Positions 17,851 through 60,680 of a stretch of 64,000 nt of DNA are shown one piece after another. The notes beneath the pieces were generated by a model, which was not told the DNA's origin, did no database searches, and saw only the letters and a list, made by a program, of their open reading frames with translations. The position numbers and the translations under genes were made by a program. Every line of letters starts with the position of its first letter. Positions within the stretch are counted from its first letter, which is position 1. Source of the stretch: Neolewinella agarilytica (GTDB taxonomy: Bacteria > Bacteroidota > Bacteroidia > Chitinophagales > Saprospiraceae); NCBI RefSeq assembly GCF_900110645.1, contig NZ_FOFB01000010.1, positions 62,001-126,000 on the forward strand, in the 5' to 3' direction.

Positions 17851-19104
17851 TTACACCCCTAATAATAACAGCGTCGGATCTTCCAGTAGCTGCTTCACGC
17901 GCACGAGGAAGGTAACGGAGCTGGAACCGTCGATCACCCGGTGATCATAGCTCAGCGCGAGGTACATCATGGGGCGAATTTTCACTTCGCCGTTAACCGC
18001 CACCGGGCGCTGAATGATGTTATGCATCCCCAGGATAGCGCTCTGCGGCTGGTTCAGAATCGGGGTAGAAAGCATGGAGCCGAAGACACCGCCATTGGTG
18101 ATGGTAAAGGTTCCTCCCTGCATCTCTTCGATACTGAGCTTGTTGGCGCGGGCGCGCGCGGCGAGGTCTTTGAGTTTCAACTCAATATCTGCGAAGTGCA
18201 GGCTTTCGATATTATTGATCGGGGGCACGACAAGGCCGGTAGGCGTGGAGACCGCAAAGCTGATGTCCACAAAGTCGTGATAGATCAGGCTCTTCTCGTC
18301 TTCAGCCAGGTGAGCATTCACGTCGGGCATTTCCATCAGTGCCACGGCGCAGGCCTTAGCGAAGATGGACATGAAGCCGAGCTTCGTGCCGTACTTCTCA
18401 ACGAACTTATCCTGTACTTTTTTGCGGAGGGCCATTACTTCGGTCAGGTCCACTTCGTTGAAAGTGGTTAGCATGGCCGTGTTGTTCTTCGCAGAGACCA
18501 GGCGGCTGGCAATCGTGCGGCGCATGCGGCTCATCTTCTCCGTGCGGGTTGCGCGGCTGAAAGAAGCCGTAGCGGGCGCGGCCGCAGGTGCAGAGGAAGG
18601 TGCCGGAGCAGCAGCGGGAGCGGCTTTGGGCGCAGCTGCGGCTTTCTGGGCGTCGTCTTTAGTGATTCGTCCGTCGCGGCCAGTACCATTTACGGTAGCG
18701 GGGTCTACGTCTGCTTCGCGCAGAATTTTTCCGGCGGCGGGGCTTGGCGTCCCCGCAGCGTAACTGGTGCTCGGCGCGGGAGCAGCAGCCGGAGCCGGTT
18801 CTTCCGCTTTGGCAGCAGGTGCAGGAGCAGCGGCCGTCTCTTTAGGAGCAGCATCTCCGCCACTGGCACTGGTATCGATTTTAGCTACGAGTGCACCAAT
18901 CTCGAGGTCATCTCCTTCGGCGGCAACATAGATCAGTTTGCCCGCAGCTTCTGCGGGGAACTCCAGCGTGGCCTTATCCGACTCAAATTCGCAGATGGCT
19001 TCATCCTGTTCCACGTACTCACCGTCAGCTTTCAGCCATTCAGAGAGGGTTACTTCAGTGACGGATTCCCCGATGACGGGAACTTTCATTTCGACAATAC
19101 TCAT
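17851..19104 (-). CDS. odhB: 2-oxoglutarate dehydrogenase E2, dihydrolipoyl succinyltransferase
   Basis: A 417-residue E2 subunit that passes succinyl groups from the E1 thiamine enzyme to CoA in the TCA cycle. Residues 1-78 are a lipoyl domain with K44 in [10 protein letters not shown] as lipoylation site. Ala-Pro-rich linkers flank the E1/E3-binding domain ([26 protein letters not shown], near 125-155). The catalytic domain ends in [13 protein letters not shown] with H388 and D392. The GESVTEV start and single lipoyl domain favour the succinyltransferase over the pyruvate enzyme. The gene stands alone; E1 is not in the window. The linker at 18574-18592 contains a copy of the dispersed element, read here as APAAAP. 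Confidence 0.92.
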
Positions 19105-19243
19105 AAGTGCAGGATAAATTTTGCTCGTAGTTCAGGCTTACTAAACGCACCGGAAGGAATGGGGTTCAGTTGCCTCAATGCCGCAAAGATCGTTAATAAG
19201 AAGCGGGGAGGCAAGCGGAGAGAAACGGAATCTCCTAAAAGCA

Positions 19244-19278
19244 ATTGGGCTACTCCCTTTGCCAGGAAGTAGCCCAAT
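19244..19278 (-). terminator. Hairpin downstream of the tRNA-like array
   Basis: ATTGGGCTACT at 19244-19254 pairs with AGTAGCCCAAT at 19268-19278 (11 bp perfect), followed on the minus strand by a short T-rich stretch. It lies after copy 1 of the tRNA-like array, which reads in the same direction, and could end that transcript before the E2 gene. Confidence 0.5.
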
Positions 19279-19334
19279 AGACTGTAGAATTAATATACGC
19301 TGGAATACAAAAGATAATATTGAACAACATTGCT

Positions 19335-19483
19335 GTAGAGGCAGGAGTCGAACCTGCAAGAGGTAGTTAGTCAGTAGCTCATTGCTCCGGGGAGCGGGCT
19401 CCGTCGGAGCATTGAGCCGTGATTTATTCCAGATTCCTCACCCGCGAGACAAGCGGGCATGGCTGCCAGTTTCATCACTCTAC
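19335..19483 (-). ncRNA. tRNA-like RNA, copy 1 (type A)
   Basis: On the minus strand the 149-nt unit begins GTAGAG and ends CTCTAC (6-bp acceptor-like stem, then A as discriminator). Next come a D-arm-like ATG-AAACTGGCAGC-CAT, an anticodon-arm-like CCCGC-TTGTCTC-GCGGG and, at the 3' side, a T-arm GCAGG-TTCGACT-CCTGC. Between the anticodon arm and the T arm lies an extra domain of about 80 nt built on a long hairpin (TGCTCCG...CGGAGCA with a lower stem GCTCA/TGAGC). By position the anticodon would be GUC, but base 37 is U and the acceptor has six pairs, so it is not an ordinary tRNA. CCA is not encoded. Confidence 0.65.
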
Positions 19484-19579
19484 ATTGTGGTTTTTCAGGT
19501 TGCAGGTTGCAGGTTGCAAGTTTCAGGTTGGGTTGAAAAACCTGCAACTTGTAACCTGCAACCTGTAACCCGTTTCGCT
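19484..19579. repeat. Heptad-repeat spacer hairpin 1
   Basis: Runs of CAGGTTG on the left and CAACCTG on the right fold into a long imperfect hairpin between tRNA-like copies 1 and 2. The same repeat separates the other copies and precedes ileS. Confidence 0.6.
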
Positions 19580-19727
19580 GTAAGGGCAGGAGTCGAACCT
19601 GCAAAGGGCGGTTAGCCAAAATTCATTGCTCCGGGAAGCAGAACTCCGTCGGAGCATCGAATTTGGTTTATTCCGGGCTCCCCACCCGCGAGACAAGCGG
19701 GCATGGCTGCCAGTTTCATCACCTTAC
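19580..19727 (-). ncRNA. tRNA-like RNA, copy 2 (type B)
   Basis: This has the same plan as copy 1 but with compensating changes: the acceptor-like stem is GTAAGG/CCTTAC in place of GTAGAG/CTCTAC, and the lower stem of the large variable-region hairpin is AAATTC/GAATTT in place of GCTCA/TGAGC. The D-arm, anticodon arm (loop TTGTCTC) and T-arm (GCAGG-TTCGACT-CCTGC) are unchanged. Copies 2 and 4 are identical over the unit. Paired changes in helices with constant loops are strong evidence for a selected RNA structure. Confidence 0.65.
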
Positions 19728-19811
19728 ATTATTGGTTGCAGGTTTCAGCTTGCGAGTTGTGGGTTGGAAAAACCTGCAACTTGTAATCTGAAACTTGCAA
19801 CCTGTTTCGCT
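19728..19811. repeat. Heptad-repeat spacer hairpin 2
   Basis: GGTTGCAGGTTTCAGC...GAAACTTGCAACC; arms of the same degenerate heptad repeat, between copies 2 and 3. Confidence 0.55.
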
Positions 19812-19960
19812 GTAGAGGCAGGAGTCGAACCTGCAAGAGGTGGTTAGTCAGTAGCTCATTGCTCCGGGGAGCGGGCTCCGTCGGAGCATTGAGCCGTGAT
19901 TTATTCCAGATTCCTCACCCGCGAGACAAGCGGGCATGGCTGCCAGTTTCATCACTCTAC
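19812..19960 (-). ncRNA. tRNA-like RNA, copy 3 (type A)
   Basis: Nearly identical to copy 1; one base differs, in the strand before the T-arm (AGGTGGTT against AGGTAGTT on the plus strand). It has the same acceptor stem, D-arm, anticodon-like arm and extra domain. Copies 1-2 and 3-4 form two tandem A-B units of about 477 bp, so the array grew by duplication of a pair. Confidence 0.65.
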
Positions 19961-20077
19961 ATTGTGGTTTTTCAGGTTGCAGGTTGCAGGTTGCAGGTTG
20001 CAAGTTGCAGGTTGCAGGTTGGGTTGAAAAACCTACAACTTGTAACCTGTAACCTGCAACCTGTAACCCGTTTCGCT
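19961..20077. repeat. Heptad-repeat spacer hairpin 3
   Basis: Longest of the spacers, with five or six CAGGTTG-type units on the left and as many CAACCTG-type units on the right. It is an expanded version of spacer 1, which suggests slippage of the heptads. Confidence 0.6.
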
Positions 20078-20225
20078 GTAAGGGCAGGAGTCGAACCTGC
20101 AAAGGGCGGTTAGCCAAAATTCATTGCTCCGGGAAGCAGAACTCCGTCGGAGCATCGAATTTGGTTTATTCCGGGCTCCCCACCCGCGAGACAAGCGGGC
20201 ATGGCTGCCAGTTTCATCACCTTAC
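20078..20225 (-). ncRNA. tRNA-like RNA, copy 4 (type B)
   Basis: Identical to copy 2 over the whole unit. It is the first copy in the direction of transcription, about 105 nt downstream of the promoter-like site at 20331-20362. Confidence 0.65.
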
Positions 20226-20330
20226 ATTATTGGTTGCAGGTTTCAGCTTGCGAGTTGTGGGTTGGAAAAACTTGCAACCTGCAACTTGTAACCTGCTTAA
20301 GAACTTGCCGTCGCTTCGTCCTTGCAATAG

Positions 20331-20362
20331 CAAAGATGCAATGTTTAGGCCCAAACACACAA
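20331..20362 (-). promoter_or_regulatory. Promoter-like site for the tRNA-like array
   Basis: On the minus strand TTG (20362-20360) is followed after 21 nt by CATCTTTG (20338-20331), one base off the Bacteroidota -7 box TAnnTTTG. It points into the tRNA-like array and lies in an AT-rich gap after the TetR gene. Confidence 0.5.
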
Positions 20363-20477
20363 GTATTTTCATTAAAATGATTCAAAATATACAAACCATT
20401 AAAATAAATTGTCAAATTGATATAAATTTCACAAATCAAGAGCACTAAATCAGGGTTTTCCTTGAAAAAACTTTAAT

Positions 20478-21056
20478 CTACTTTTTAAGCACCGCCCAAA
20501 CGTACTCTTTACAACGATTTCTCACTTCTTCATCATAGGCCCCCTTGAGGTGTGTTTGCCGATGATCGATCAGCATTTTTATAATGCTATCAATAACGTG
20601 TACCATCTCTTCGGGGTCTCCTTCCCGTACCAATCCGGCATTTTGCCCTTCCTCAACTAACTCAAGCGTAAACCGATACTGGTCTACCGTATCCTGATAA
20701 GACCGTTCGGTCATAAAGGGAGATCGCTGCAATAGATCGATGAACAGAATGGCTTCGCGGTTAGCGCTTACAAAATCTGCGTACTGCCCTACGTAAGTCT
20801 TTACCCTGCCTTCATAGTTTTCCTCATCATCAGTACTTGCCTGCATCAAATAGGCCGCTCCTCTGCTTCGGACTTCCCGATCAACGGAAAGCAGGATATC
20901 CTGTTTGTCTTCAAAGTAAGTATACAGGCTCCCCGTAGCGATACCAGCCTTCCTGGCCAGTTCACTCATCTTTATACCAGCCAGCCCTTTCTCATGTGTA
21001 AGCTCTAGCGTTGCCCGGATGATGGCTTCAAATTTCTGTTCGTCTTTTAAGCGCAT
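20478..21056 (-). CDS. TetR/AcrR-family transcriptional regulator
   Basis: A 192-residue regulator. The N-terminal helix-turn-helix (TLELTHEKGLAGIKMSELARKAGIATGSLYTYFEDKQDIL, residues about 17-55) is typical TetR and should bind an operator as a dimer. The C-terminal ligand domain has no recognisable effector class. The plus-strand lipoprotein gene at 21148 is divergent and only 91 bp away, so that gene is a natural target candidate, though no clear palindromic operator was seen. Confidence 0.85.
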   Translation of the reverse strand: MRLKDEQKFEAIIRATLELTHEKGLAGIKMSELARKAGIATGSLYTYFEDKQDILLSVDREVRSRGAAYLMQASTDDEENYEGRVKTYVGQYADFVSANREAILFIDLLQRSPFMTERSYQDTVDQYRFTLELVEEGQNAGLVREGDPEEMVHVIDSIIKMLIDHRQTHLKGAYDEEVRNRCKEYVWAVLKK

Positions 21057-21147
21057 GTGCTGGCAAACTTACAATTAGAATTCTCATTCAGCAACGCGTC
21101 TGTATCACCAGTACTACAGTATGTACATCTTGTTCTACCTTAGATGG

Positions 21148-21576
21148 ATGAAACATTCACTTTTCTTCCTCCTTGCCCTTCTCTTTTGTGCTTGTGGTAC
21201 GGACTCCACGGCCGAAGCCATTACTGAGGTAAAAACCATCTCCGTCGACGTGGCCGCTGCAGCCCCTGACTCCCTCCTGCGTCATGCCGTTATGTTTTCT
21301 TTTAAAGAAGAGAGCTACCCGGACGGAGTAGCCATGGTTGAAGCAGCCTTCCGTGAACTCCCTGAAAAGATCGACGCTATCCACGATTTCGAATGGGGAA
21401 CCAACAACAGCCCCGAAGGATTAGACAAAGGGTTTACTCACCTGTTCTTCGTCACTTTTAAAAGCGAGGCAGACCGGGAAGTATATCTTCCTCATCCTGA
21501 CCACCAGGCTTTCGTTGAAGTATTGGGCCCTCACCTGGCAGATGTGCTGGTTCTTGATTACTGGACACGGGATTAA
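21148..21576 (+). CDS. Dabb (stress-responsive A/B barrel) domain lipoprotein
   Basis: I start at 21148 (MKHSLFFLLALLFCACG) because the lipoprotein signal then follows directly; the ATG at 21121 adds nine residues. That gives 142 residues with lipobox LLFCAC. From residue 45 the protein is a Dabb domain: LLRHAVMFSFKEE, then a helix, IHDFEWGTNNSPEG, THLFFVTFKSEADREVYLPH and PHLADVLVLDYW. Dabb domains form dimeric ferredoxin-like barrels; the ligand is unknown. The stop codon is part of the terminal repeat of the element at 21576. Confidence 0.75.
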   Translation: MKHSLFFLLALLFCACGTDSTAEAITEVKTISVDVAAAAPDSLLRHAVMFSFKEESYPDGVAMVEAAFRELPEKIDAIHDFEWGTNNSPEGLDKGFTHLFFVTFKSEADREVYLPHPDHQAFVEVLGPHLADVLVLDYWTRD

Positions 21577-60569: not shown

Positions 60570-60680
60570 TTCAAGTTGCAGGTTGCGGGGTGCAGGTTTC
60601 AAGTTGCAGGTTGCAGGTTGCGAGGTGCAGATTGAAATAGGATGAGCGGGCAACCTGCAACCTGCAACTGGTTACCTGCT
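60570..60680. repeat. Heptad-repeat hairpin between attenuator and ileS
   Basis: Repeats of CAAGTTGCAGG type and, on the other side, CAACCTG units form an imperfect hairpin like the spacers of the tRNA-like array. It lies between the leader terminator and the ileS start. Confidence 0.6.

Follow-up and report, generated by a model that had tools for sequence, protein, structure and literature searches.

Four tandem copies of a large tRNA-like RNA were identified in Neolewinella agarilytica, with homologues in many other Bacteroidota genomes and in viral contigs. The RNA folds as an ordinary class-II cloverleaf in which the D-arm resembles that of tRNA-Leu and the anticodon loop is of the Asp type; its variable arm alone is odd. 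We consider it likely that this tRNA takes little part in decoding and is dedicated to the supply of asparagine, for which it would be charged by AspRS and amidated by GatCAB.

The window, i.e. the whole 64,000-nucleotide stretch of N. agarilytica DNA that was analysed, was shown to encode four tandem tRNA-like units with an extra domain on the minus strand (Table 1), as had been proposed in an initial annotation made from the DNA letters. Along this strand the units follow the order B-A-B-A. Types A and B are distinguished, as that annotation also noted, by paired changes in both the acceptor stem and the extra arm. When counted from U1 to G73, the units measure 151–152 nt rather than the 148–149 nt given previously. 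BLAST analysis placed all copies in this genome, four in total, within the array. The promoter-like and terminator-like sites flanking the array represent consensus matches only; the former is merely suggestive, because three such sites were observed in the region against 1.3 expected, while three terminator-like sites were observed against 2.1 expected, the site listed in Table 1 having by far the longest stem. Genes adjacent to the RNA are common within the genus of the window (in two arrangements) and none is common between families, so that no function can be assigned to the RNA through guilt by association. The spacers between the units contain CAGGTTG-type heptamer repeats. These heptamer arrays (window positions 19496-19570 and 19973-20068) form inverted repeats between units, and a similar array was observed near 60.6 kb of the window (60570-60634).

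Table 1. Features of the RNA array and of associated loci; positions are those of the window unless a contig is named
Feature	Position	Strand	Details
RNA unit 1 (type B)	20076..20226	(-)	151 nt, U1 to G73; anticodon GUC 20192-20190
RNA unit 2 (type A)	19810..19961	(-)	152 nt, U1 to G73; anticodon GUC 19927-19925
RNA unit 3 (type B)	19578..19728	(-)	151 nt, U1 to G73; anticodon GUC 19694-19692
RNA unit 4 (type A)	19333..19484	(-)	152 nt, U1 to G73; anticodon GUC 19450-19448
Promoter-like site TTGACA-18-TATATT, 5' of array	20386..20415	(-)	11/12 consensus bases
Terminator-like hairpin, 3' of array	19244..19278	(-)	15 pairs, T-rich tail
TetR-family regulator	20478-21056		upstream of array; Pfam
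2-oxoacid dehydrogenase acyltransferase	17851-19104		downstream of array; Pfam
Second-version tRNA clusters	C50 94239-94767; C69 34389-35036; C27 517546-518463		possibly on mobile element
Second tRNA-like family loci			L273, L320, L282, L285, L289, L329, L351, L357, L360

The covariation of the RNA family is strong and the four units are real. When 41 members from loci found by BLAST were aligned with MAFFT alone and the structure was drawn from the first row of the alignment, 96.0% of cells pair and 19 of the 31 pairs have changed on both sides. A wider set was obtained by running model R1 over 100 selected loci, which yielded 142 matches at E≤1e-16, 138 of them distinct. Among the distinct sequences 95.5% of pairs are kept and 24/31 pairs have changed on both sides, in an alignment that leans towards the model because it was fitted to it. 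When the partners were slid by 1–3 columns in these same 138 sequences, 49.4–55.9% of pairs were kept, and 500 shuffles of the set kept a mean of 79.1%, with 0/500 reaching 95.5%.

The acceptor stem, previously described as 6 bp, was found to comprise 7 bp (TGTAAGG/CCTTACA and TGTAGAG/CTCTACA), as the T just before and the A just after each annotated unit pair with one another. With this U1-A72 pair counted, which closes the stem in all aligned copies, the acceptor and T-stems stack as 7+5, the normal 12 pairs, in place of the 11 reported earlier. The remaining cloverleaf was represented by U8-G9, a D-arm with a 3-bp stem, a 5-bp anticodon stem with a 7-nt loop, a 5-bp T-arm, G73 and C74, and together with the long variable arm these elements constitute a class-II tRNA fold; the D-arm, T-arm and GUC anticodon with U37 are as originally described. 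The extra domain of about 80 nt does exist, yet it is the variable arm of this cloverleaf and not an alien fold. The arm starts from a 4-bp base, followed by a bulge on the 5' side, a helix of 3 bp and an internal loop around AUAAA and CUAA, and it ends in an outer hairpin whose size differs greatly among copies. Across the 142 copies, the stretch between the anticodon stem and the T-stem spans 25–131 nt (median 78) and the whole RNA 97–212 nt; a 78-nt form with A34 and a short loop in place of the long arm was found in one carrier (L372, genome G382). The strings A[TC]AAA and CTAA occur together, at any position, in 107/142 copies. An accessory motif, GGGTTGACCAC (≤1 mismatch), was observed in the variable arm of 62/142 copies, 34 bacterial and 28 viral; it resembles a small hairpin and is found in 28/31 viral sequences of the alignment.

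The D-loop contains GGCA in 142/142 copies, and the RNA therefore has no 20a. The D-arm is close to that of tRNA-Leu(CAG) of the same genome, and the body of the RNA therefore probably derives from tRNA-Leu. The model of the RNA cross-matches tRNA-Leu of the same genomes at ~45–57 bits; the RNA differs from tRNA-Leu, which has A73, in its anticodon loop, discriminator, U1-A72 pair and arm length.

ARAGORN found no tRNA and no tmRNA in the window, and tmRNA (a split tRNA carrying a reading frame for a tag) was rejected accordingly. In the stretch 18300-21300, Rfam 15 returned 13 matches at E≤5 with none above its gathering score; ten of these were models of animal microRNAs that fell on the heptamer spacers, and the other three (two SNORD10 and one IRES) fell far below the gathering scores, all 13 being judged to be chance matches. 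The Rfam tRNA model produced 49 matches in the whole genome, none of which was located on the contig of the window (C55). The family is thus missed by both the tRNA finder and the RNA library used, and the homologues with covariation bear out the earlier suggestion of a possible new tRNA-like family. The accompanying claim that the RNA fits no ordinary tRNA, tmRNA or long-armed tRNA is supported in so far as the finders miss it, but not as regards its fold. tRNA-Sec, which needs a 13-bp acceptor-T branch, and allo-tRNAs, in which a 12-bp acceptor/T branch has a shifted split, were rejected on account of the 7+5 arrangement found here. As described in passages of PMC7609411, both are unusual tRNAs with long variable arms and non-standard use, in which the RNA resembles them, and both have longer acceptor domains or stems, in which it does not.

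Passages in PMC9976931 state that aspartate identity rests mainly on G73, G34, U35, C36 and C38, that G1-C72 also matters for AspRS, and that U1-A72 confers GatCAB specificity, whereas G1-C72 and U20a block it in tRNA-Asp. In the 142 copies, G73, C74, U35, C36 and C38 are invariant, G2-C71 is present in 141 and G34 in 137, and position 37 is U in 137, C in four and G in one. U1-A72 is likewise invariant (142/142) in this set, recovered with R1, a model that was trained on U1-A72 copies and therefore favours them. As U1-A72 replaces the aspartate element G1-C72 throughout, charging may be weaker; the two features of a GatCAB substrate, U1-A72 and the lack of 20a, were observed together in every copy. 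The scan pattern fixed U35, C36 and C38 and limited positions 34 and 37, with U1-A72 outside the pattern, and the 69 copies found without this constraint on the anticodon consequently matter most: G34 is present in 67, U35, C36 and C38 in all 69, U37 in 68 and U33 in 56. Judged by these published rules, the RNA combines AspRS determinants with GatCAB determinants. Unaided, ARAGORN calls one short-armed viral copy (L308) a tRNA-Asp.

An ordinary decoding tRNA-Asp isoacceptor with a giant variable arm, reading GAC/GAU, would also account for the GUC anticodon, for the AspRS determinants and for the retention of U33 in 118/142 copies. However, U37 takes the place of the purine expected in a decoding tRNA-Asp in 137/142 copies and U33 is lost in 24/142, while the genome already has ordinary tRNA-Asp genes. 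Furthermore, Asp-charged copies with U1-A72 would be open to amidation by GatCAB, with misreading as the expected result, and the pairing with GatB and exclusion of AsnB described below would be left unexplained; we regard a decoding role as improbable. The RNA shares the GUC anticodon, C38, G73 and G2-C71 with tRNA-Asp, but is distinguished from it by U1-A72 instead of G1-C72, U37, the lack of 20a, a tRNA-Leu-like body and the giant variable arm.

Alternatively, the RNA may be charged by SerRS or another synthetase and donate an amino acid to a non-ribosomal transferase. SerRS is not known to require an anticodon, which leaves the invariant U35, C36 and C38 unexplained; moreover, no transferase gene is conserved next to the RNA, and one carrier has the 78-nt form without a long arm (L372). 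The class-II shape and G73, which passages in PMC7609411 give as what SerRS recognises, do point in this direction, the long arm and G73 being shared with tRNA-Ser/Sec, although overall we hold such charging to be very improbable.

The pairs at 1-72 of tRNA-Asn and tRNA-Gln were read in the genome of the window only: both tRNA-Asn genes found have G1-C72, while one tRNA-Gln has A1-U72 and the other U1.G72. None has U1-A72, and none is therefore predicted to be a GatCAB substrate by the rule as worded in passages of PMC9976931. This RNA is the only candidate GatCAB substrate with Asp determinants found in that genome, as judged from the tRNA sequences. Compact clusters in which several tRNAs (those for Asn, Asp, Arg, Leu, Cys, Ser and Trp) occur in a second version were also observed in the same genome (Table 1).

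BLAST analysis detected the RNA in 34 of 60 genomes, including that of the window. With R1 at E≤1e-20, carriers were identified in 181/298 genomes of the order and in 40/394 genomes of the phylum sample, where no genome of family f25 reaches this threshold; in the order set no best match falls between 9.5e-16 and 6.0e-26. R1 scored 10 candidates per genome in the order and seven per genome in the phylum sample, and eight order genomes without a match were counted as lacking the RNA. Looser tallies at E≤0.001 (270/298 and 368/394) were discarded because R1 also matches ordinary tRNA-Leu. A pattern scan of named genomes returned at least 120 stretches; among the matches listed, the models confirm 119/120, the miss being a Gluconacetobacter contig. 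Among the matches listed, 80 titles belong nearly all to Bacteroidota (including Chitinophaga, Terrimonas, Dyadobacter, Spirosoma, Hymenobacter, Algoriphagus, Pedobacter, Mucilaginibacter and Saprospiraceae), with one Ignavibacteriales and one given just as 'bacterium'.

The distribution of the RNA was compared with that of GatCAB, whose presence was scored through GatB. GatB is encoded by the genome of the window; of 14 controls, E. coli and Bacteroides ihuae lack it. Among the 298 order genomes, 176 have both the RNA and GatB, five the RNA only, 48 GatB only and 69 neither (Fisher p 1.6e-29, phylogeny ignored). The five carriers without GatB (G123, G143, G146, G225 and G282) are assemblies of 350–530 contigs. 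A recheck for false negatives with model R2 covered 40 genomes, namely 37 of these 48 (all but G069, G079, G082, G092, G095, G115, G127, G133, G139, G157 and G178) together with G352, G382 and G460. Three proved to be carriers: G295, with a copy cut by a contig end, and G248, with an interrupted T-arm, both from the 48, and G382, with the 78-nt form; the counts above are kept as first scored. Of the rechecked genomes among the 48 that stayed without the RNA, most lie outside the family of the window. The copy of G248 (L378) lies near a contig end and its T-arm is interrupted by extra sequence. In the phylum sample, 40/40 carriers have GatB, which is present in 320/394 genomes; outside the class it commonly occurs in genomes that lack the RNA, and within the class sample this combination was observed in G352, G460 and G505, with G382 having the short form.

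E. coli-type AsnB (NF006949, E≤1e-120) was found in 18/298 genomes, 17 of them above the model cut-off. All 18 lack both the RNA and GatB, and 0/181 carriers have this AsnB (p 2e-8 against the RNA and 2e-12 against GatB, 298 genomes, phylogeny ignored). The exclusion was also observed within genera: in g42, G093 and G235 have the RNA and GatB and G198 has AsnB; in g62, G276, G283, G288 and G308 have the RNA and GatB, G259, G266 and G272 have AsnB, and G216 and G223 have neither; in g103, six genomes have the RNA and GatB and G226 has AsnB. The RNA and GatB are lost together in g107 (G113), g137 (G280 and G293) and g34 (G119), while discordant genomes in carrier genera are G007, G166, G225, G125, G128, G160, G167, G178, G146 and G143.

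NF006949 replaced TIGR01536 as the AsnB marker because the latter also matches longer AsnB-like proteins. Such proteins from G000, G288, G196 and G138 all fall below the NF006949 cut-off, and those from G000, G288 and G196 pass that of TIGR01536. TIGR01536 is nevertheless an asparagine-synthase model, and the AsnB-like protein of the window's genome passes it (418.8 bits against a cut-off of 267.1), which counts against the role proposed for the RNA; asparagine may therefore have another source. A TIGR01536 match was found in 27 of 30 carriers examined, two of the 30 also having AsnA, and neither was found in three (G126, G197 and G260). AsnA was present in 8/70 genomes examined, two of them carriers (G093 and G470).

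The pattern used to scan the named genomes returned at least 120 stretches from IMG/VR; among the matches listed, R1 finds the RNA in 80/80 and R2 in the other 40/40, two copies (L288 and L331) being cut by a contig end. The first 80 stretches contain 73 distinct RNA sequences, and some viral contigs are therefore near-duplicates; some IMG/VR contigs may also be proviral or misassigned. With the RNA itself excluded, ARAGORN detected at least one tRNA in 51 of these 80 viral pieces, at least five in 22, a tmRNA in 11 and tRNA-Asp in 10. Among annotated phages, one query matched LR756504.1 (636 kb, 72.6% identity, without annotation) and a second query gave no match. A second tRNA-like family was also observed at viral loci, with constant tRNA-like ends (AGTCAGGTGGCG ... 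GGTTCGAATCCTGTCCTGACT) around a 74–147 nt unit of variable interior without an evident anticodon arm; among the matches listed, it is present as 20 copies in 9/120 loci, with up to seven per locus (Table 1).

The RNA might also act without carrying an amino acid, as a scaffold for or regulator of an AspRS-GatCAB complex or as a decoy for tRNA-targeting nucleases. In keeping with such roles are the structured variable arm, with A[TC]AAA and CTAA in 107/142 copies and GGGTTGACCAC in 62/142, and the finding of the RNA in viral contigs, many of which have tRNA arrays. Conversely, the invariant G73 and C74 suit an aminoacylated 3' end, and the arm can be nearly absent (L372), making such roles rather unlikely. 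If the RNA is instead an asparagine carrier, viral copies may sustain the asparagine supply during infection, and what leads viruses to carry sets of tRNAs would also explain why they carry the RNA.

For the favoured carrier role, charging and amidation were predicted by applying published identity rules to the sequences. AspRS would charge the RNA with aspartate via G34-U35-C36-C38 and G73, and GatCAB would then convert this aspartate to asparagine, since U1-A72 is present and 20a is lacking in the RNA, in contrast to ordinary tRNA-Asp with its G1-C72 and 20a. Asparagine would putatively then be released, in a scheme that includes no releasing enzyme, and would supply cells that lack E. coli-type asparagine synthetase, presumably through its use by AsnRS on ordinary tRNA-Asn. 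The charged RNA may be prevented from misreading Asp codons by U37, the relaxation at U33 and the giant arm, features that may alternatively bind a partner.

That asparagine can be made on a tRNA is known, the carrier being tRNA-Asn. The proposed chemistry, U1-A72 and the lack of 20a are shared with tRNA-Asn of this tRNA-dependent pathway (ND-AspRS and GatCAB); in contrast, the RNA has an Asp-type anticodon loop and a giant variable arm, probably does not decode, would need no non-discriminating AspRS and exists alongside a tRNA-Asn with G1-C72 in the genome of the window. The staphylococcal non-translational tRNA-Gly likewise serves metabolism and not decoding, as proposed here, but is of ordinary size and involves another amino acid and enzyme. 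Passages in PMC4206432 propose tRNA-dependent asparagine synthesis for bacteria with AsnRS, GlnRS and GatCAB and no asparagine synthetase, some Bacteroidetes among them, and indicate that in the Bacteroidetes genera of that group tRNA-Asn itself carries U1-A72, which counts against the role proposed here. No separate carrier RNA for asparagine synthesis was found in the open-access literature, to which the search was confined so that absence there is not proof, nor in Rfam 15 at the locus; the RNA is a tRNA by anatomy and apparently serves as a metabolic cofactor.

On balance, we lean towards a phylum-wide class of tRNA with little or no decoding, which would act as an RNA cofactor for making asparagine and, together with GatCAB, replace E. 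coli-type asparagine synthetase, with viral copies keeping up the supply during host takeover. If so, many Bacteroidota would depend on a small RNA for making asparagine. This would explain why GatCAB is kept in a genome whose tRNA-Asn and tRNA-Gln have no GatCAB signature, as well as what viruses gain by carrying the RNA, and it would offer a case, open to testing, in which a tRNA has been freed from decoding.
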